Shown: positions 4,268-13,324 of the stretch, in pieces | Layout: the number at the start of each line of letters is the position of its first letter | Numbering within the stretch: position 1 is the first letter of the stretch | Virus record (IMG/VR): IMGVR_UViG_3300008111_000316 | Location: 1-20,270 of that record | Reading direction: 5' to 3' (one strand) | Origin: a virus | Length of the DNA: 20,270 nucleotides | The notes under the pieces: model-generated | Databases searched by the model: none | What the model was told of the DNA's origin: nothing | The model's input: the letters and a program-made list of their open reading frames with translations, nothing else | Position numbers and translations under genes: made by a program

Positions 4268-6613
4268 TTATGCTTCGCCTCGACGCATTTGACTGCGCGA
4301 CGGCCGTGTTTCGTCAGGTGCAGTGCGAAACTCATCCAGCATACCAATGCCAAACACAGAAGAGCGATTGTGCGAGACTGCACCGATCTCTGCATACCGT
4401 GTCAGCAATTGCTGCACAAGCCATCGCTGTGATTTGAATGATGCACCTCTTTCGCCTTCGTCTTCTGCCCATTCTTTCCATGCGTCATAAAGCGTGTGTT
4501 TGCTGATGACAGCAGTGAGATTCATGACGCATCTCTGCTGGATGAATCGCGCAACAATGTCTTCCTCTCCACGATATTCCGTCGTTGCCTTCTCGACGGC
4601 TTCGCATGAGCCAAGACCATTCCTATACCAGAGATGTGCGCCAAAGATCATCCATTGCAGTATGGCTTCTGATTCCTCATGAAACATGGCTTCCAATTCT
4701 CTTGGATCTTTTCGCTGTGCTTCTGGAATAGTTGCAGTGAATGGTAGGATGCGAAGACGTCGCCAGATGCCCACATCGAGACCTGTAATGCGAGGTTTGT
4801 GATTGCCAGTAATCCAGAGAGTGTGCGACGGATTGAACACGAATGGCTTTCCGTAGAGTGTGCGCGCAGTGATCGCATCGCCACCAGTGATGTCTTTCAC
4901 TCTGGATTCATTGAGCTTTCTGCCTTCTGGCATCTCTGAGGCCATGGCGAATCGTTTTCCGACAAGCGCAGCAATCATTGGTGTGGCACCTTCGCCATCC
5001 TGCCTGTGGTCAAGCAGTGCTTCGATAGATGATGTAGTGCCATAGTCGCCAGCAATGATGCTCAGTGCCTTCATGAATGAAGATTTACCATTGGCCCCAT
5101 TGCCATAACAGAAGAAAAGACAATGCTCATCTGTGGAGCCAGTCATGGTATATCCGACAGCTTTCTGCACATAGTCAATCAGATCGGCATCGTCTTGGAA
5201 GACAGTGCGCAGGAATGTTTGCCATTTCTGCGACATGGGAATTTCTTTGTACTCGACATTGACGATTTTCGTCAGCATCAGTGCAGGATCATGCTTGATG
5301 ACAGTCATGGTGCGCAAATCGACGACGCAATTGGCGCAATTGAATAGCCATGGAGAGGAATCGAATTCTGCTGGCTTTGCGACAAGATATGGCTGAGCTT
5401 CTGCAATCATGCCATCGATGCGCGATGTGGATTCACTCTTCAGTGCCCATTTCGCCAGATCGGCATTGATGGCGAGTGATCCACCAGCTTCTTTGTACAT
5501 TTCAAGCACGACTGCGTGTGCCAGTCGCTTGACTGCATGAACGTCAGTGTGTTCCCATCTTTGGCCATTCCACACAATCCATGCTTTCCATTCTGGCACG
5601 TATCGCAATTTGTCTTTTGTTGCGTCCACCAGTCTTTTTCCATTGCCAACATCAGTGTGATGGTATGGCGCATCGATTATTGCGACATCGTTTGTCTCAG
5701 AGTCTGTCAGTGCATCCTGTGACGATGTTTTGATTGGCACTGCTTTCGCTGTTGGTCGAGGAATAGGCAATGGTGCCTGTCGTCCATATCCAATGCCATC
5801 AACGATTGCTTTCCGCTCTTGTCGCTGTGCGCCAGTGCGAGGAATCTGTGCGCCATACAGCATGTCAGTAATCTGGTCATCAGAGTATTGAGAAAAGCCA
5901 ATCGACTCAGCGCCAGCAAGATATCCTCCAAGCAGTCTACCTGCGCGAATGCGAGTCTCGTGTCTATCGCCTTCAGAAGCATTTGCGACCATGCGTATAC
6001 CTGCATTGATGCGTCGCTGCATTACTTCCTTTACCCAAGCATCTGGATAGTCAGCATTGCTTGGTGCGACATTTGGCAAAGGTTTTTCTGCCTGATGTGC
6101 ATCCTTCAATTCCTCGATAAGCCAATCGACCGCATCTTGGATGTCGGTCAATTCCTCAGATGATCCTTCAGTGAGATTCTCAGTGAATGTGAAATATCTG
6201 GCAGTCTCGTATATCTCTACTTTATCGCCACCAGCAGTGCGTCCTTTGAGTCTGCTTCCTTCAGGTATCTCTGCAGTGCCAATGATGTGCAGGCCTTTTC
6301 CGCTTGGAGATATTTCGCTGTAGGATTTGGCGAAATACAATGCCTGCTTTGCGACAGATGATGGCTTCACCGATCCGTCAGGCATCGATGTGAGACATGC
6401 GTCTAGGTCGATGCCAACAATGCCGTCTCCAGTCAGCACAAAGCCAACACCAACAGTGTTGTATTTCCCTACGGCTTTCTCTGCTTCGTCATGTGTCGTC
6501 CATGTGGACGAGTCTGTGGACGATGCATTGCGTCCAGATTTGGCATCCACAGGAATTTTCTTCGCTGTGTAGCACACCCATCTTGGCTGCGATTTGAGGT
6601 CATCAATGTTCAT
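4268..6613 (-). CDS. Primase-helicase (prim-pol/D5-type, SF3 helicase)
   Basis: The 781-aa protein combines two enzymes of replication initiation. The N-terminal ~170 residues look like an archaeo-eukaryotic-type primase/polymerase: GIDLDAC (67-73) holds the metal-binding aspartates, SPSGKGLHI (102-110) is the conserved S-G-H strand, and VEIYETARYFTFT (132-144) follows. The C-terminal part is a superfamily 3 helicase with a D5_N-like region (about 330-480), Walker A GNGANGKSS (504-512), Walker B-like RFAMASEM (554-561), sensor LWITGNHKPRI (599-609) and an arginine-rich WRRLRILPF (617-625). Such proteins prime and unwind DNA in phages lacking a separate primase. It starts in an ATGA overlap with the methyltransferase stop, with GGA upstream. 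The inverted-repeat element follows its stop. Confidence 0.93.
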   Translation of the reverse strand: MNIDDLKSQPRWVCYTAKKIPVDAKSGRNASSTDSSTWTTHDEAEKAVGKYNTVGVGFVLTGDGIVGIDLDACLTSMPDGSVKPSSVAKQALYFAKSYSEISPSGKGLHIIGTAEIPEGSRLKGRTAGGDKVEIYETARYFTFTENLTEGSSEELTDIQDAVDWLIEELKDAHQAEKPLPNVAPSNADYPDAWVKEVMQRRINAGIRMVANASEGDRHETRIRAGRLLGGYLAGAESIGFSQYSDDQITDMLYGAQIPRTGAQRQERKAIVDGIGYGRQAPLPIPRPTAKAVPIKTSSQDALTDSETNDVAIIDAPYHHTDVGNGKRLVDATKDKLRYVPEWKAWIVWNGQRWEHTDVHAVKRLAHAVVLEMYKEAGGSLAINADLAKWALKSESTSRIDGMIAEAQPYLVAKPAEFDSSPWLFNCANCVVDLRTMTVIKHDPALMLTKIVNVEYKEIPMSQKWQTFLRTVFQDDADLIDYVQKAVGYTMTGSTDEHCLFFCYGNGANGKSSFMKALSIIAGDYGTTSSIEALLDHRQDGEGATPMIAALVGKRFAMASEMPEGRKLNESRVKDITGGDAITARTLYGKPFVFNPSHTLWITGNHKPRITGLDVGIWRRLRILPFTATIPEAQRKDPRELEAMFHEESEAILQWMIFGAHLWYRNGLGSCEAVEKATTEYRGEEDIVARFIQQRCVMNLTAVISKHTLYDAWKEWAEDEGERGASFKSQRWLVQQLLTRYAEIGAVSHNRSSVFGIGMLDEFRTAPDETRPSRSQMRRGEA

Positions 6614-8298: not shown

Positions 8299-9566
8299 TT
8301 GAGAATCTCCATTATACGTTTGCCAATCCATTGCACCACAGGAACAGGCCATGAGTTTCCTAATGCTTTGTATCTTGGCGCATCAGATGCCATTTTCCCT
8401 TTGAAAGGGATCAGTGTGTAGTCGTCTGGAAATCCTTGCAGTCTCTCGCATTCTCTTGGTGTCAGTCGTCTGATATCGACCATGGGCACATTTCCTCCGC
8501 CAGTGCCCATGTGCGATGTTAGTGCTGGAGCGATGTCGTCAGTCTGGACACGCATGGGATCAAAGCCAATCTTCTGCCAGATCGTGTGGTCGTGTGCAAT
8601 GTACTGATCCTGTGTTGATGCAATGGTAAACGTCTTTTCTTCTGAAACAATCATGCCATGTCCACCAAAAATGTTTGTGTTGACGATGCGTTCACCATTC
8701 TCACCAGTGTAGGTGCCTTTTCCTCGCACCTTGAATGCTACGCTTGCATGATGTTTCAGTGTGACTGCTGGCGAAATCTCTTCATAGAAACCTGGTGCAT
8801 TTCCAAGCTTTCCAATGTGGACACCATTGCCAGATATGCTGTACGTCATTCCTGCTGAGCTTTGGCCATCAGTGCTTCTCTCAGCGGATTCGGTATTTGC
8901 TTTCCGTATCTCTCTGATCGGTCGATGATGCTTCTGCACTGTTCCGAATTCAAATAGTATCTGTCCGATATCGATATCGTCTCTAGCACTGCTGACAAGA
9001 AACACACGCTTGCGTCGTTGTGCCAATCCGAAGTATTGAGCATCGAGAATTCGCCATGCAATGCTTCTGACTGGGCCAACGACAATACCCGCGTTTGGCC
9101 ATTTGTTCCTTGGTGTGATAAGAGGTTTTGATTCGCCAGCAAGGCCTGCGAGAAAACTACCGAAGGCATTGTCATGCGTGCTGAGAACTCCCGGAACATT
9201 TTCCCAGAGGATGATTGCTGGCTTTTGTCCATTTCCTCTTCGAACATCGTCAATTGCATTTGCGACCTCACAGAATATAAGACTAAGATTTCCGCGATCG
9301 TCGTCGAGACTCTGGCGATTGCCTGCCATGCTGAATGCTTGGCATGGTGTTCCTCCACACAGCATCTCTGGTGCAGTCACACTGCCTGTGCGAATCAGCT
9401 CAGGAAGCAGTGCCATATCGCCAATGTTTGGCGTGTCTGGATAGTGATGCGCCAGCACTGCAGATGGAAACGCGTCAATCTCAGCAAACCAAGCAGCATG
9501 CATGCCAAGAGGATTGAGTGCAACAGATGCAGCTTCGATACCACTACAGACAGATCCGAATTGCAT
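8295..9566 (-). CDS. C5-cytosine DNA methyltransferase
   Basis: This 423-aa protein carries the ordered motifs of Dcm-type enzymes: I FGSVCSGIEAAS (3-14), IV GGTPCQAFSMAG (71-82, catalytic Cys75), VI WENVPG (121-126), VIII LAQRRKRVFLV (181-191), IX RRLTPRECERLQGFP (366-380) and X ALGNSWPVPV (401-410). The region 190-360 between motifs VIII and IX is the target recognition domain and is unusually Gly/Thr-rich. It transfers methyl groups from AdoMet to carbon 5 of cytosine. The true start is the ATG at 9566, because the GGAGG site lies inside the longer frame from 9578. It follows a hairpin-bearing gap after the SSB-like gene. No cognate endonuclease is visible. Confidence 0.95.
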   Translation of the reverse strand: MQFGSVCSGIEAASVALNPLGMHAAWFAEIDAFPSAVLAHHYPDTPNIGDMALLPELIRTGSVTAPEMLCGGTPCQAFSMAGNRQSLDDDRGNLSLIFCEVANAIDDVRRGNGQKPAIILWENVPGVLSTHDNAFGSFLAGLAGESKPLITPRNKWPNAGIVVGPVRSIAWRILDAQYFGLAQRRKRVFLVSSARDDIDIGQILFEFGTVQKHHRPIREIRKANTESAERSTDGQSSAGMTYSISGNGVHIGKLGNAPGFYEEISPAVTLKHHASVAFKVRGKGTYTGENGERIVNTNIFGGHGMIVSEEKTFTIASTQDQYIAHDHTIWQKIGFDPMRVQTDDIAPALTSHMGTGGGNVPMVDIRRLTPRECERLQGFPDDYTLIPFKGKMASDAPRYKALGNSWPVPVVQWIGKRIMEILK

Positions 9567-9579
9567 GGAAACCTCCAAT

Positions 9580-9611
9580 GAGATGCGCAGTGCTTACACA
9601 CTGCGCATCTC
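9580..9611 (-). other. Intergenic hairpin, 13-bp stem, 6-nt loop
   Basis: The arms GAGATGCGCAGTG (9580-9592) and CACTGCGCATCTC (9599-9611) are perfect complements. The hairpin fills most of the 53-nt gap between the SSB-like gene and the C5-methyltransferase, ending a few bases before the GGAGG site of the latter. No U-run follows on the minus strand, so it is not a standard terminator. It may protect or process mRNA ends or insulate translation. Confidence 0.85.
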
Positions 9612-9619
9612 GATACGAC

Positions 9620-10423
9620 CTAGAATGGTCGAGAATCCTCATCATACTCTACTGGCGTGTTGCGAGTCTCTTGCACTGCCTGCTCAGCAGGCATCTCGTC
9701 ATTGGTACGCATTTCCTTTGACCAGTCGCGATATTCCTCGAATGCCGTCTGGGCTTTTTCCATCATGGTCTTTCCGACATAGAGTGATGCGCACAGATCG
9801 CGGTCAATCTTGGCAATGTCGAAACCAATCTTTGGAATGATGACTGAAGATCCGTATCCAGTATCAGTCGTAATCAGACGATTCTTTCTGTCCAATGGCT
9901 GTGTGATCGGTGTCCAGAACATGAAGCTTGGAATGTCGCGTTTCGCAGTCTTCTTTGCTTCCGTCGCAACATCTCGCATTGCTGCAAAGATAGATTCACT
10001 CTTCATTGCTGTGACACCTCGACCGACCAAACCTTTGACTGGCCAGACGACCACATCATCATGGCCTTCAATGAGACAGAGAATCTCAGTGTACAGACGC
10101 ATGTTGGCATTGGCTTTCCAGTGTGGATGCCATGTCTTCGTGCGAATGCCATTGGTCGTCTCTTCAGTGTATGCCTGTGTGCGTGTGCGAATGACGACAA
10201 TACGCAATGATGATGCAGTAAAGCCATCTTCGTCGTCGAACAATTCTGCGTTTTCCCATGGTGCCAGCAGATCAGGCAATTGCGATGCGCGTGCGTAGAA
10301 TTTCCCCACAATGCCTGTGGTCTTCGTCGTTGATAGCCAAGAGATGCGAGGAATACCATCGCCAATGTCTTCTCGCTCATGGCTATAGTTGATGTCTTGC
10401 AGATCGCGCTCAAAATCACTCAT
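9620..10423 (-). CDS. Putative single-stranded DNA-binding protein with acidic C-terminal tip
   Basis: The 267-aa protein contains beta-rich stretches such as RISWLSTTKTTGIVGKFYAR (26-45), LRIVVIRTRTQAYTEE, MRLYTEILCLIEGHDDVVVW and WPVKGLVGRGV. This resembles a phage family (I recall DUF5895) often found with replication genes. The last residues are PVEYDEDSRPF, an acidic tail ending Pro-Phe, the hallmark of bacterial SSB proteins that recruit partners through their C-terminus. I infer an ssDNA-binding role, though no classic OB-fold signature is readable by eye. AAGGGAG lies 7 nt upstream of the ATG, the same strong site used by the major tail protein, suggesting high expression. Hairpins flank the gene on both sides. 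The primase-helicase and methyltransferases lie downstream. Confidence 0.68.
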   Translation of the reverse strand: MSDFERDLQDINYSHEREDIGDGIPRISWLSTTKTTGIVGKFYARASQLPDLLAPWENAELFDDEDGFTASSLRIVVIRTRTQAYTEETTNGIRTKTWHPHWKANANMRLYTEILCLIEGHDDVVVWPVKGLVGRGVTAMKSESIFAAMRDVATEAKKTAKRDIPSFMFWTPITQPLDRKNRLITTDTGYGSSVIIPKIGFDIAKIDRDLCASLYVGKTMMEKAQTAFEEYRDWSKEMRTNDEMPAEQAVQETRNTPVEYDEDSRPF

Positions 10424-10445
10424 GGAGTTTCTCCCTTGTGTATAG

Positions 10446-10470
10446 TGGAGCAGTCACAGCGACTGCTCCA
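10446..10470 (-). other. Intergenic hairpin, 10-bp stem, 5-nt loop
   Basis: TGGAGCAGTC (10446-10455) pairs perfectly with GACTGCTCCA (10461-10470). It lies in the 61-nt gap between the 76-aa gene and the SSB-like gene, just upstream of that gene's AAGGGAG site. No U-tract follows, so it is not a simple terminator. Its placement matches the hairpins at 9580, 12546, 12826 and 13089. Confidence 0.82.
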
Positions 10471-10484
10471 TGGCTTCCTGTTGT

Positions 10485-10715
10485 CTAGGTGTTTGGATTG
10501 ACGTCTTCCCATGTCGGAATGGCATCCAAGGGATCAATCTGGTATGTGCCACACTCGACATCGATGCGACGAAGCAATTCTTCACTGTAGATGTCATAGG
10601 CAATCACATCGCCAATCACATATGCTACCTGTGAAGCAAACTCCACATACGATGCACTACGCTCAGAAACCGTCTGGCGCATTTCCTTGGCCTGTTCCTC
10701 AGTGATGTGTCTCAT
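10485..10715 (-). CDS. Hypothetical 76-aa protein, first gene after promoter P2
   Basis: The protein (MRHITEEQAKEMRQTVSERS...) is hydrophilic in its first third, has a hydrophobic helix in the middle (YVEFASQVAYVIGDVIAYDI) and ends with an acidic, Pro-rich tail (IPTWEDVNPNT). No known motif is evident. The start at 10715 is set by AAGGA 8 nt upstream; the 10742 alternative is a TTG with no site. Promoter P2 lies about 70 nt before it, so it is the leader gene of the SSB-methylase-helicase operon. First-position small genes in phage operons are often host-takeover factors, which is speculation here. Confidence 0.72.
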   Translation of the reverse strand: MRHITEEQAKEMRQTVSERSASYVEFASQVAYVIGDVIAYDIYSEELLRRIDVECGTYQIDPLDAIPTWEDVNPNT

Positions 10716-10784
10716 TGGTCGTTTCCTTTCTGACGATACCAATTATGTACTGCGCAGTGCGCCTTGTACCAAGATTACCTGTCC

Positions 10785-10813
10785 AGCATATAGCATATCA
10801 ATTTATCTGTCAA
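10785..10813 (-). promoter_or_regulatory. Promoter P2, sigma70-type
   Basis: On the minus strand, TTGACA (10813-10808) is followed by a 17-bp spacer and TATGCT (10790-10785). In an alternative register, TGC-TATATG forms an extended -10 at 15 bp. The spacer shares the 15-mer ATTGATATGCTATAT with promoter P1. Transcription would start near 10778, leaving a leader of about 60 nt before the 76-aa gene. The -35 overlaps the stop codon of the tandem-HTH gene. Confidence 0.8.
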
Positions 10814-11403
10814 GCATCTTCCTCATCGAGACAGACAATGTTCATGCGCCAGATACGCATTCGTACAGTGTGGTATGCAATACCTAATTCTGCAGAGATT
10901 TGCTTGCGTGTGCGAGAAGCAAACCATTCGGGATTATTAGGCCATCCATTTTCCTTGCGATATGGCATGCGTGTGTATCCATGTCGTCTGCAGTGATCTC
11001 TCACTGAATCAGATGATGCGCCCAAATCGATTGCTATCTGAGCAGTCGTCTTCGCTGCGTAGTACGATGCATCTGTTGGCCATTTGATGTGTGTATAGAT
11101 TCGTTTCCTTGCAAAGCCATGCTTGTGGCAATACTTTTTCACTGTGTTTGTGTCCACATGGAGCGTATCAGCAATCTCTCTGGTCGTCTTTTCTGCATAC
11201 CATGCAGCATCGCTTGGCCATCGATTGTAGTATGTTGATGGTCGAATTGCGCGTCTGGTCTTAAATCCAAACTTAAGCACAAAGTTTCTCACTGTGGAGT
11301 CTGACAGATTGAATTCATGACAAATCTGCTTCACAGTGTGCGATGCGTAATAATCAGCATCTAATGGCAGTACATTCGATTTGCATTTCCGACCAGCATG
11401 CAA
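10810..11403 (-). CDS. Tandem helix-turn-helix repeat protein (four HTH units)
   Basis: Nearly the whole 197-aa product is four related units of about 46 residues: 12-61, 62-107, 108-153 and 154-197. Three begin W-P and share the scheme W-P-x-(D/N)-x-x-(W/Y)-(Y/F)-A-x-(K/R)-T-x-x-(Q/E)-I-A, then an HTH turn (LHVDTNTVKK, LGASSDSVRD, LGIAYHTVRM) and a basic tail such as HKHGFARKR or RRHGYTR. Each unit looks like a homeodomain-like HTH, so the protein could read a long or repeated DNA site. No nuclease domain is visible. The frame has no ATG; it opens at TTG 11403 with a poor site. A related HTH half-unit ends just upstream in another frame, so the intact gene may be split or frameshifted (see 11414-11527). 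A regulatory role is inferred. Confidence 0.78.
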   Translation of the reverse strand: MHAGRKCKSNVLPLDADYYASHTVKQICHEFNLSDSTVRNFVLKFGFKTRRAIRPSTYYNRWPSDAAWYAEKTTREIADTLHVDTNTVKKYCHKHGFARKRIYTHIKWPTDASYYAAKTTAQIAIDLGASSDSVRDHCRRHGYTRMPYRKENGWPNNPEWFASRTRKQISAELGIAYHTVRMRIWRMNIVCLDEEDA

Positions 11404-11413
11404 TTCTTCGCAA

Positions 11414-11527
11414 TCAAACTTCTTCTGAGATGTTCAATGCTTTTGCAATGTACGATGTTGGATGCACACTCTGCAGTGTGGCAATCACATCGTCTGTGTA
11501 TCGCAGGTCGTCTCGACAAATCTTCAT
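11414..11527 (-). CDS. 37-aa HTH-like ORF, probable 5' part of the tandem-HTH gene
   Basis: The frame starts at ATG 11527 in an ATGA overlap with the preceding stop. It reads MKICRDDLRYTDDVIATLQS and then VHPTSYIAKALNISEEV before TGA. The HPTSYIAKALNIS segment matches the start of an HTH unit like those in the downstream protein but is cut in mid-unit. Shifting +1 at the GTT-TGA end continues as KKFDCEELHAGRKCKSN directly into the tandem-HTH protein with no stop. Either a one-base change has broken one gene into two, or the GTT TGA context supports +1 frameshifting as in prfB (CTT TGA). GAGGAA lies about 8 nt before the ATG, so translation starts here are plausible. Confidence 0.6.
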   Translation of the reverse strand: MKICRDDLRYTDDVIATLQSVHPTSYIAKALNISEEV

Positions 11528-11763
11528 AGATGTATTCCTCTTGCAGTCAGTACTGCGTCGATCATGGAGCGCACCTCACTGAGAGTCTTTCCCATATAGG
11601 ATTTGACGACTCTTCCCTTGCGTCCACCAGTCTCTTCCAATGTGCCAATCCACAGACCATCCAAACCTAATGCAATCCGTCCAGCATAATGACGATTTGG
11701 CGTGTCGTATGAGACACGCCATGTCATGCCAGTATTTCGCCATTCAATCTTTGGTGTGCTCAT
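11524..11763 (-). CDS. Hypothetical 79-aa protein (integrase arm-binding-like pattern)
   Basis: The product (MSTPKIEWRNTGMTWRVSYD...) has alternating strands in its first 45 residues, with a W-R-V-S-Y-D and H-Y-A-G-R-I pattern, then a basic turn (GGRKGRVVKSYMGKTLSE) and a terminal helix (EVRSMIDAVLTARGI). The three-strand-plus-helix layout resembles small DNA-binding domains like the arm-binding domains of integrases, but the match is by shape only. It overlaps the next and previous genes by ATGA, so it belongs to the P1 operon. Function unknown. Confidence 0.68.
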   Translation of the reverse strand: MSTPKIEWRNTGMTWRVSYDTPNRHYAGRIALGLDGLWIGTLEETGGRKGRVVKSYMGKTLSEVRSMIDAVLTARGIHL

Positions 11764-11945
11764 GCTTGCTCCATATGCTCTTTATTGCGATGCTGGATGA
11801 CACGAGATAGTTGATACATCCTATACAGCAATGCTTCGTATCGTTGCTTTTCGCGCAATGTCAGACATGCGAACAATCGAAGACGCAATTCTGCAATTTC
11901 TTCCATGACCTGCTGAAGATCGGTATCGATGGTAGGTGCAGTCAT
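11760..11945 (-). CDS. Hypothetical 61-aa coiled-coil protein
   Basis: The protein begins MTAPTIDTDLQQVMEEIAEL and is then almost wholly helical with Leu at heptad positions (ELRLRLFACLTLREKQRYEALLYR...), ending in the charged HRNKEHMEQA. A short coiled coil or helical hairpin is expected. The ATG at 11945 makes an ATGA overlap with the gene before it; the longer frame to 12065 runs antisense-like through that gene and lacks a site. It overlaps the next gene by ATGA. No family or function is recognised. Confidence 0.68.
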   Translation of the reverse strand: MTAPTIDTDLQQVMEEIAELRLRLFACLTLREKQRYEALLYRMYQLSRVIQHRNKEHMEQA

Positions 11946-12247
11946 AGTGGATCCGTTTGCTGTGTATCGAAGCGTGCTTCCTCCAACATGCTCAGCATCA
12001 GATGCGCATCGCACACATGATACACATAGTCTTCGTCTCGCTCGACCAGGTACACACATCCGCATGATGCAGTGATGTAGACTGCGCCAACATCGCGACG
12101 ACGAATCATGAAGCGATACAGAGGATAGTCGCGATTGATGTCGTCATGCAGTGCTGGCATCTGCGCATTGCGCACATCCATAGTGAATTTGACTGTGTAT
12201 GCGCCATGGCCCATGCGACGCAGCCAAGCATAGAATTCGTTGTGCAT
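11942..12247 (-). CDS. Hypothetical 101-aa protein
   Basis: The protein has an aromatic and basic N-terminus (MHNEFYAWLRRMGHGAYTVK), then strands rich in Val/Tyr (YPLYRFMIRRRDVGAVYITA). A cysteine pair CGC near residue 62 and a third Cys in YVYHVCDAH near residue 79 follow; with the adjacent His these could bind a metal, but the spacing matches no known finger. The C-terminus is helical and acidic (MLSMLEEARFDT). Its ATG shares a base with the upstream TAA (TAATG) and its stop overlaps the next ATG. I cannot assign a function. Confidence 0.7.
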   Translation of the reverse strand: MHNEFYAWLRRMGHGAYTVKFTMDVRNAQMPALHDDINRDYPLYRFMIRRRDVGAVYITASCGCVYLVERDEDYVYHVCDAHLMLSMLEEARFDTQQTDPL

Positions 12248-12528
12248 TAGTTTGCCTTTCTGTATCGACGTGCTTCGCGTGTCGTTGCGTGCCAGTAGCC
12301 ACCAATAGGATTGAGGATTCTGCCTTCGTCGTTGCGCATGACCGCATAGGTGCGAGTGCCATACTCGATATCAGCATAGTCCAGCATGCCGATGATGCGC
12401 TTTGCAAATTCGCGGTCAATTGCGACATAGTACTGGTGTGTGTACAGGATTTTGTCATTGTCTGCGCGACAAATAGAGATTGCGATTCTCTCAGTGATCG
12501 GTCTGCGCAAATCGGTCAGCACACTCAT
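12247..12528 (-). CDS. Hypothetical 93-aa protein
   Basis: The product (MSVLTDLRRPITERIAISIC...) appears to be a small alpha/beta fold: strand IAISICRAD, strand YTHQYYVAI, helix REFAKRIIGMLDYADI, strand RTYAVMRND, and a basic tail ATTREARRYRKAN. No motif is recognisable. The start at 12528 is clear from the AAAGGAAGAAACC leader, the same leader used by two genes upstream. An intergenic hairpin cassette precedes it. It ends in a TAATG overlap with the next gene, the first of the tightly overlapped part of the P1 operon. Confidence 0.72.
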   Translation of the reverse strand: MSVLTDLRRPITERIAISICRADNDKILYTHQYYVAIDREFAKRIIGMLDYADIEYGTRTYAVMRNDEGRILNPIGGYWHATTREARRYRKAN

Positions 12529-12585
12529 GGTTTCTTCCTTTCTGTATGGTGCCAGCACTGTACTGGCACCATTGCTCTATACGCT
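12529..12585 (-). repeat. Intergenic hairpin/leader cassette, copy 1 (57 nt)
   Basis: The whole gap between two genes is a hairpin followed by a strong ribosome binding site. Stem ATGGTGCCAG (12546-12555) pairs with CTGGCACCAT (12563-12572) around a 7-nt loop, then ACAGAAAGGAAGAAACC precedes the ATG. Copies 2 and 3 at 12808 and 13071 are close relatives in sequence and almost the same length. Confidence 0.85.
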
Positions 12586-12807
12586 CTACAGTGTGTCGTC
12601 ACCGACAATGTAGCAAACGACGACGTTTTCTTCTGGATGCTTTTCTTTCCAGTGATTGACGATTGACTGAAAATCGGCATATGTCGTGTTCAGTCCATTG
12701 AATGCAATCTTGATTTCTCTGGTCTCTGCATCCTTGATTATGACGCGATTGTATATGGCTTCAGTCATGGGATTCTTCGTCTTAGTGAATGGATGGTTTT
12801 CTTTCAT
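12586..12807 (-). CDS. Hypothetical 73-aa protein
   Basis: The protein (MKENHPFTKTKNPMTEAIYN...) has a basic hydrophilic N-terminus, a strand (NRVIIKDAETREIKIAF), a helix (DFQSIVNHWKEKHP) and a final strand (NVVVCYIVGDD). The EIKIAFNGLNTTYADFQ stretch links the two halves. It matches no family I know; the small alpha/beta pattern is like many phage host-interaction proteins. The start at 12807 follows AAAGGAAGAGACC from the repeat cassette. It is flanked on both sides by copies of the same intergenic hairpin cassette, so it may have arrived or been shuffled as a module. Confidence 0.7.
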   Translation of the reverse strand: MKENHPFTKTKNPMTEAIYNRVIIKDAETREIKIAFNGLNTTYADFQSIVNHWKEKHPEENVVVCYIVGDDTL

Positions 12808-12863
12808 GGTCTCTTCCTTTCTGTGTGGCGCCAGCACTGTACTGGCGCCATTGCTTGCGAGTC
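12808..12863 (-). repeat. Intergenic hairpin/leader cassette, copy 2 (56 nt)
   Basis: Stem TGGCGCCAG (12826-12834) pairs with CTGGCGCCA (12842-12850) around CACTGTA, followed by ACAGAAAGGAAGAGACC and the ATG. Relative to copy 1, one T-A pair in the stem has become C-G with both arms changed, which keeps the pairing. It shares the stop-side sequence TAAGACTCGCAAGCAATGG with copy 3. Confidence 0.87.
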
Positions 12864-13070
12864 TTATGCTTCCAGTGTGGCTTTTGCAAACCGGATCATG
12901 GCTTCTGAATAACTTATGTCTTTCTTGCAAGCCATCTTCCCTTGCATCGTTGCAGTCTTTTCTACTGCCTGTGACCATTCAATCCGCAGAGTGTAATACT
13001 CGATGCGTACCATGGGATCAGTAAAGTTTTCTGGCTGTTTGGGCTCCAGCTTCATCAATTTCGGATCCAT
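12864..13070 (-). CDS. Hypothetical 68-aa protein
   Basis: The product (MDPKLMKLEPKQPENFTDPM...) is hydrophilic with a Pro-rich N-terminal third, a helix with aromatic residues (VRIEYYTLRIEWSQAVEKTA), a short lysine patch (GKMACKKDIS) and a C-terminal amphipathic helix (YSEAMIRFAKATLEA). No motif is recognised. The start at 13070 is set by the AAAGGAAACGAAC leader in the repeat cassette. Its gap to each neighbour is one copy of that cassette, and both copies are exactly 56 nt long. It is the second gene of the P1 operon. Confidence 0.7.
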   Translation of the reverse strand: MDPKLMKLEPKQPENFTDPMVRIEYYTLRIEWSQAVEKTATMQGKMACKKDISYSEAMIRFAKATLEA

Positions 13071-13126
13071 GTTCGTTTCCTTTCTGTGTGGTGCCAGCAC
13101 TGTGCTGGCACCATTGCCTGCGAGTC
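13071..13126 (-). repeat. Intergenic hairpin/leader cassette, copy 3 (56 nt)
   Basis: Stem TGGTGCCAGCA (13089-13099) pairs with TGCTGGCACCA (13103-13113) around a 3-nt loop, followed by ACAGAAAGGAAACGAAC and the ATG. This is the most stable of the three copies. The loop-proximal bases differ from copies 1 and 2 in a way that extends the stem. The homology runs from the upstream stop codon to the downstream start. Confidence 0.87.
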
Positions 13127-13324
13127 TTAGAATTCCGATGCGTCGTCCAATTCGTTTGGCAGTGCTGTGCAGAATCCGTCGCATTCCCCAATCGATGCGC
13201 CACAGACTACGCAATCGTCCAATTCGTTTGGCAGTGCTGTGCAGAATCCGTCGCATTCGCCAATCGATGCGCCACAAACTGTGCAGTCAGTGCTGGTCAT
13301 CTCAATGTTTGCATTGGTCATCAT
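13127..13324 (-). CDS. 65-aa protein with two identical-type four-cysteine zinc knuckles
   Basis: After a 13-residue lead (MMTNANIEMTSTD), the protein is two consecutive 24-residue units that differ by a single residue (CTVCG versus CVVCG), then ASEF. Each unit has the spacing C-x2-C-x6-C-x3-C (Cys14, 17, 24, 28 and Cys38, 41, 48, 52) and ends TALPNELDD, so each could hold one zinc ion. The acidic linker argues against simple nucleic-acid binding and fits a small adaptor or decoy. It is the first gene after promoter P1; AAAGG lies 8 nt before the ATG at 13324. The longer frame upstream passes through the promoter and terminator and is not coding. Confidence 0.78.
   Translation of the reverse strand: MMTNANIEMTSTDCTVCGASIGECDGFCTALPNELDDCVVCGASIGECDGFCTALPNELDDASEF
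13144..13287 (-). repeat. 72-bp tandem duplication inside the zinc-knuckle gene
   Basis: Units at 13144-13215 and 13216-13287 start with the same CGTCCAATTCGTTTGGCAGT (plus strand). They are identical for more than 40 bp and differ at only a handful of positions near their far ends. The unit length is a multiple of three, so the frame and one complete four-cysteine motif were duplicated. The near identity at DNA level points to a recent event. Confidence 0.92.

Follow-up and report, generated by a model that had tools for sequence, protein, structure and literature searches.

Programmed +1 frameshifting in prfB involves several highly conserved elements: the slippery run CTTT, an AGGGGG-like (SD-like purine) element three nucleotides before it, and the weak stop TGAC (PMC12421855). 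Among helix-turn-helix (HTH) proteins of phages, D5 of phage T5 comprises 255 residues and has been reported to be the trigger of retron-Kva2 (preprint PMC13405049). Virome assemblies, in turn, are documented to contain chimeric contigs derived from co-existing related strains (PMC5610896). All three descriptions are relevant to a split tandem-HTH gene in a virus record of 20,270 bases, the whole of which was analysed and is called the window here; on its minus strand, the window carries tail genes, a primase, two DNA methyltransferases, thymidylate synthase, and an endolysin.

The split gene consists of two frames, both on the minus strand. The upstream one is a 37-aa ORF (11414-11527; MKICRDDLRYTDDVIATLQSVHPTSYIAKALNISEEV), which provides the start and helices 1 and 2 of the first HTH unit and closes with the codons GAA GAA GTT TGA. 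The downstream one is a 197-aa frame (10810-11403), which contains HTH units 2 to 5 and displays WP at residues 62, 108, and 154. Skipping one T at GTT TGA yields GAT TGC GAA GAA TTG and leads without interruption into the larger frame, where residue 146 is the first Met codon and the sole earlier start is a TTG at 11403 without a well-placed ribosome-binding site. The first-pass annotation had pointed out the GTT TGA end, the open +1 path, and the doubtful TTG start, and all of these are present as described. It considered either one gene that was recently broken or expression by a prfB-like programmed +1 shift; the latter draws on the open frame beyond the stop codon and on the similarity of GTTTGA to CTTTGA. 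Upstream, the TGA of a 79-aa gene (11524-11763, minus strand) shares bases with the start codon of the HTH gene (ATGA), which suggests that the two genes are translationally coupled.

Homologues of the whole gene are present in six close viral metagenome contigs (L002 to L007) and in 25 further contigs. Each of the about 25 complete homologues is a single uninterrupted frame of 209-304 aa (249-269 aa for the close ones), and GTTTGA was found in none of them. Comparison of homologues had been suggested as a way to tell a recent break from conserved recoding, and it returned intact single-frame versions and no conserved split. Given that the search yielding the 25 further contigs was seeded with KICRDD and YTDDVIA, the conservation of these residues is biased, while single-frame status is unbiased; the invariance of YTDDVIATL in unit 1 is therefore not used as a sign of importance. 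The first 36 residues of the 37-aa ORF recur unchanged at the N-terminus of the single-frame L003 and L004 proteins, which bears out the earlier proposal that this ORF is the source of a fifth unit. The same identity speaks against two unrelated adjacent genes, one for a 37-aa peptide and one for a four-unit HTH protein. Although a TTG start is available to the second of these at 11403, its poor ribosome-binding context also argues against such an arrangement, which we regard as barely conceivable.

Two of the close relatives differ further from the window. In L002, an in-frame 45-nt deletion lies inside HTH unit 1 (within 4836-5585); just upstream, at about 4563-4831, some 270 additional nucleotides include a different small ORF. 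L003 carries an out-of-frame 101-nt deletion near its position 2241 (window 12625-12725), with 100% identical flanks and almost no microhomology. Elsewhere, a tblastn search of deposited phages with the 197-aa frame gave no match at E 1e-5 and weak ones at relaxed limits (best E 9e-3). Genome contigs yielded no relative, the PDB returned no significant match by sequence or by fold, and a literature search on tandem HTH phage proteins retrieved nothing relevant.

The two parts of the split gene belong to different sequence types. On the gene-upstream side, towards higher coordinates, identity to L004 is 100% over 11419-13235 (1817 bases), and the 37-aa ORF is likewise identical to L003 from 11419 outward; on the other side, the window follows L007 with 97.7% identity over 9562-11426. 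Among 127 sites differing between L004 and L007, 43 of 43 upstream of the junction are of the L004 type and 79 of 84 downstream are of the L007 type (Fisher p about 1e-28 for the parent switch). The last L004-type informative site is at 11420 and the first L007-type site at 11414, which bounds a mosaic junction at 11414-11420 (minus strand), where GAAGAAG meets TTTGAT and gives rise to the in-frame TGA. This join is out of register: it is 86 nt shorter than L007, and most of the recognition (third) helix of unit 1 is gone together with the linker. Intact unit 1 runs on as EEDVLYHCIETHGMSHNGTVLPITEE in L003 and EDDVLYHYEETLGLAHNGTVLSITEEEQEDAFDCEELHAGRKC in L007, the nearest relative downstream, which reads in-frame GAAGACGCATTTGATTGC at the junction site; the window passes from NISEE straight to FDCEELHAGRKC, out of frame. 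The two sides of the junction occur separately, one in L003 and L004 and the other in L007. The base preceding TTTGATTGC is A in L007 instead of G; the true downstream parent is thus unsampled, and the join is not reproducible base for base. No other viral contig was found with the junction 35-mer, which is weak evidence because the scans may lack records that are very close to the window.

From these sequence comparisons, it is highly probable that one five-unit gene was broken by a one-off, out-of-register join of L004-like to L007-like sequence, either through recombination or in a chimeric assembly. The proposed join would connect the upstream L004-like type to the downstream L007-like type, drop the 86 nt present in L007, and thereby make GTT TGA. 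The single-frame homologues and the mosaic junction both fit the view of one recently broken gene. Two other accounts of the stop codon were rejected: a homopolymer sequencing error is at odds with flanks of two sequence types and 86 missing nucleotides, and TGA as a sense codon is at odds with TGA ending most genes of the contig, including the HTH gene.

The same observations weigh heavily on the frameshift proposal, according to which a programmed +1 shift at GTT TGA fuses the frames into a functional five-unit protein. The parent switch sits at GTT TGA, which makes this motif a product of the join, and the complete homologues are all single-frame and do not have the site. While the window resembles the prfB site in its NTT TGA and its open +1 frame, it differs from it in being unconserved and in every flanking element: no AGGGGG-like, SD-like purine element lies three nucleotides before the slippery run (the window reads CTCAGAAGAAGTTTGAT), GTTT stands in place of CTTT, and TGAT stands in place of TGAC (the sequence compared with these elements is CTCAGAAGAAGTTTGATTG). 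Moreover, the fused product would be without most of helix 3 in unit 1 and of the linker, so that even +1-shifted translation would fail to recover the ancestral protein. We thus consider programmed frameshifting at this locus extremely improbable.

The preferred reading, a gene broken by a mosaic join, can be accounted for in two ways. One is a chimeric contig, in which the assembler, or a chimeric read, fused sequences from two strains that live together and both carry the gene intact; we give this slightly better than an even chance. It is supported by the switch of the nearest relative exactly at the junction and by the intact genes in both parental types. The clean loss of 101 nt (out of frame) in L003 and of 45 nt in L002, in each case between near-identical flanks and with almost no microhomology, points the same way, as do the documented cases of chimeric virome contigs (PMC5610896). 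However, simple k-mer merging would require a longer overlap than the join offers.

The other account is a real event, in which illegitimate recombination or a deletion has recently inactivated or shortened the regulator in the phage; we assign this somewhat less than an even chance. De Bruijn assembly normally requires a read spanning the junction, which makes a blind join less plausible than a chimeric read or a molecule that really existed. In addition, no Ns are present at the join, and identity to L007 also shifts near 9900 in the window, in register, indicating that mosaicism occurs elsewhere in this sequence. Against a real event stand the failure to find a second contig with the junction, the out-of-register position of the join within a homologous gene, where no microhomology to L007 is evident, and the comparably odd, clean losses of sequence in L003 and L002. 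Taken together, recombination and artefact are weighted almost equally, and the deletions in the neighbouring contigs tip the weighting slightly toward artefact. If the break is real, the phage of the window would produce no more than a 37-aa stub, plus a four-unit remnant through weak initiation at TTG. Building on the 86-nt mosaic join in the window and the independent 45-nt in-frame deletion in L002, one might further speculate that the break is both real and selected, with a phage sub-population trimming unit 1 so that the array reads a different DNA site; one example of a benefit would be evasion of a host defence that recognises proteins of this kind in the way a retron senses T5 D5. We view this as very improbable.

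The intact gene product is, judged from sequence and modelling, a nuclease-free protein of ~264 aa with five tandem HTH units and a DNA-binding function predicted from its fold. In the window, units 2 to 5 are all encoded on the minus strand and were delimited by repeat statistics and modelling: unit 2 (LPLDADYY...) spans 11251-11370 (residues 12-51 of the 197-aa frame), unit 3 (WPSDAAWY...) 11101-11220 (residues 62-101), unit 4 (WPTDASYY...) 10963-11082 (residues 108-147), and unit 5 (WPNNPEWF...) 10825-10944 (residues 154-193). The repeat statistics were taken on the intact homologue L003 using 1000 shuffles. Units 2 to 5 have 11-16 of 40 residues in common pairwise, and none of 1000 shuffles reached any of the six scores. 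Unit 1 is far more diverged, resembling unit 3 (3 of 1000 shuffles) and unit 4 (1 of 1000) and not units 2 and 5. Whole-protein scores with Pfam HTH models of the Sigma-70 region 4 and LuxR-GerE type exceed the curated cut-offs. An AlphaFold2 model of L003 built on a 23-row alignment, used in place of an earlier and poor 6-row model (pLDDT 62), predicts five three-helix units (H12-44, H83-111, H133-162, H179-208, and H225-253) with a mean pLDDT of 77. Values reach about 80-87 inside most units, linkers lie between them, and a pTM of 0.30 leaves the relative placement of the five units undefined. The Pfam matches, the repeat statistics, and the modelling of the repeats that had been called for thus back the tandem-HTH interpretation of the first-pass annotation, including its fifth unit. 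Its claim that a nuclease domain is missing also holds, as no HNH or GIY-YIG model is among the Pfam families listed for the 23 homologues.

Binding of DNA through several successive recognition helices, as the fold implies, would make the intact protein most likely a phage transcription regulator. Candidate targets are two promoter-like elements. P2 (10785-10813, minus strand), a sigma-70-like promoter (TTGACA-17-TATGCT) recognised by sequence match and conservation, overlaps the stop codon of the HTH gene, in agreement with its earlier placement at the gene end, and precedes the next gene (10742-10485). It is kept in the close relatives, and similar TTGACA elements occur in several distant ones. 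P1 (13368-13400) is a second conserved promoter-like element, and the 13-mer TTGATATGCTATA, which it also contains, has two sites in all six close relatives, one after the HTH gene and one at the position matching 13369 of the window. Support for the promoters comes from conservation and not from the match itself, because a regional scan gave fewer matches than shuffles did.

Other repeats are found nearby. A repeat with the perfect or near-perfect palindrome TGGYGCCAGCACTGTRCTGGCRCCA occurs in three copies (12526-12594, 12805-12873, and 13068-13136), each just upstream of an ATG start with a strong ribosome-binding site, where none is expected by chance; many relatives have two or three copies, and the palindrome could be an operator or an RNA hairpin. 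At 13143-13286, a 72-nt tandem duplication lies in frame within a small ORF, with an apparently different copy number in L004.

The analysis strikes a false candidate off the list of programmed frameshifts and illustrates that mosaicism among strains can make metagenomic phage contigs imitate recoding. The interest of the locus, which is modest, lies in the protein family, and that of the split is low: an uncharacterised, nuclease-free family of five-unit HTH proteins encoded beside a conserved promoter is tractable for DNA-binding assays.

With respect to known families, the best PHROG is phrog_323 (transcriptional regulator, D5-like), which is matched by six of six close homologues (best E 1.1e-14). 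Of the five units, this match takes in only about two to three, and the scores of other HTH families are nearly as good. A D5 protein of a Vibrio phage is among the fold matches (E 2.3e-6), the TM-scores of which are low (about 0.2). Similar to T5 D5, the protein described here is an HTH phage protein of comparable size, but the match is partial and does not extend to a tblastn match with deposited phages at the threshold given above. HNH and homing endonucleases (phrog_8446 and phrog_7545) have similar HTH repeat units, whereas the tandem-HTH homologues have no nuclease model among their Pfam matches. Sigma-70 region 4 and LuxR-GerE proteins resemble the family in the HTH units that produce the above-cut-off scores; the HTH core alone is held in common, and here it is present in five copies with no partner domains.
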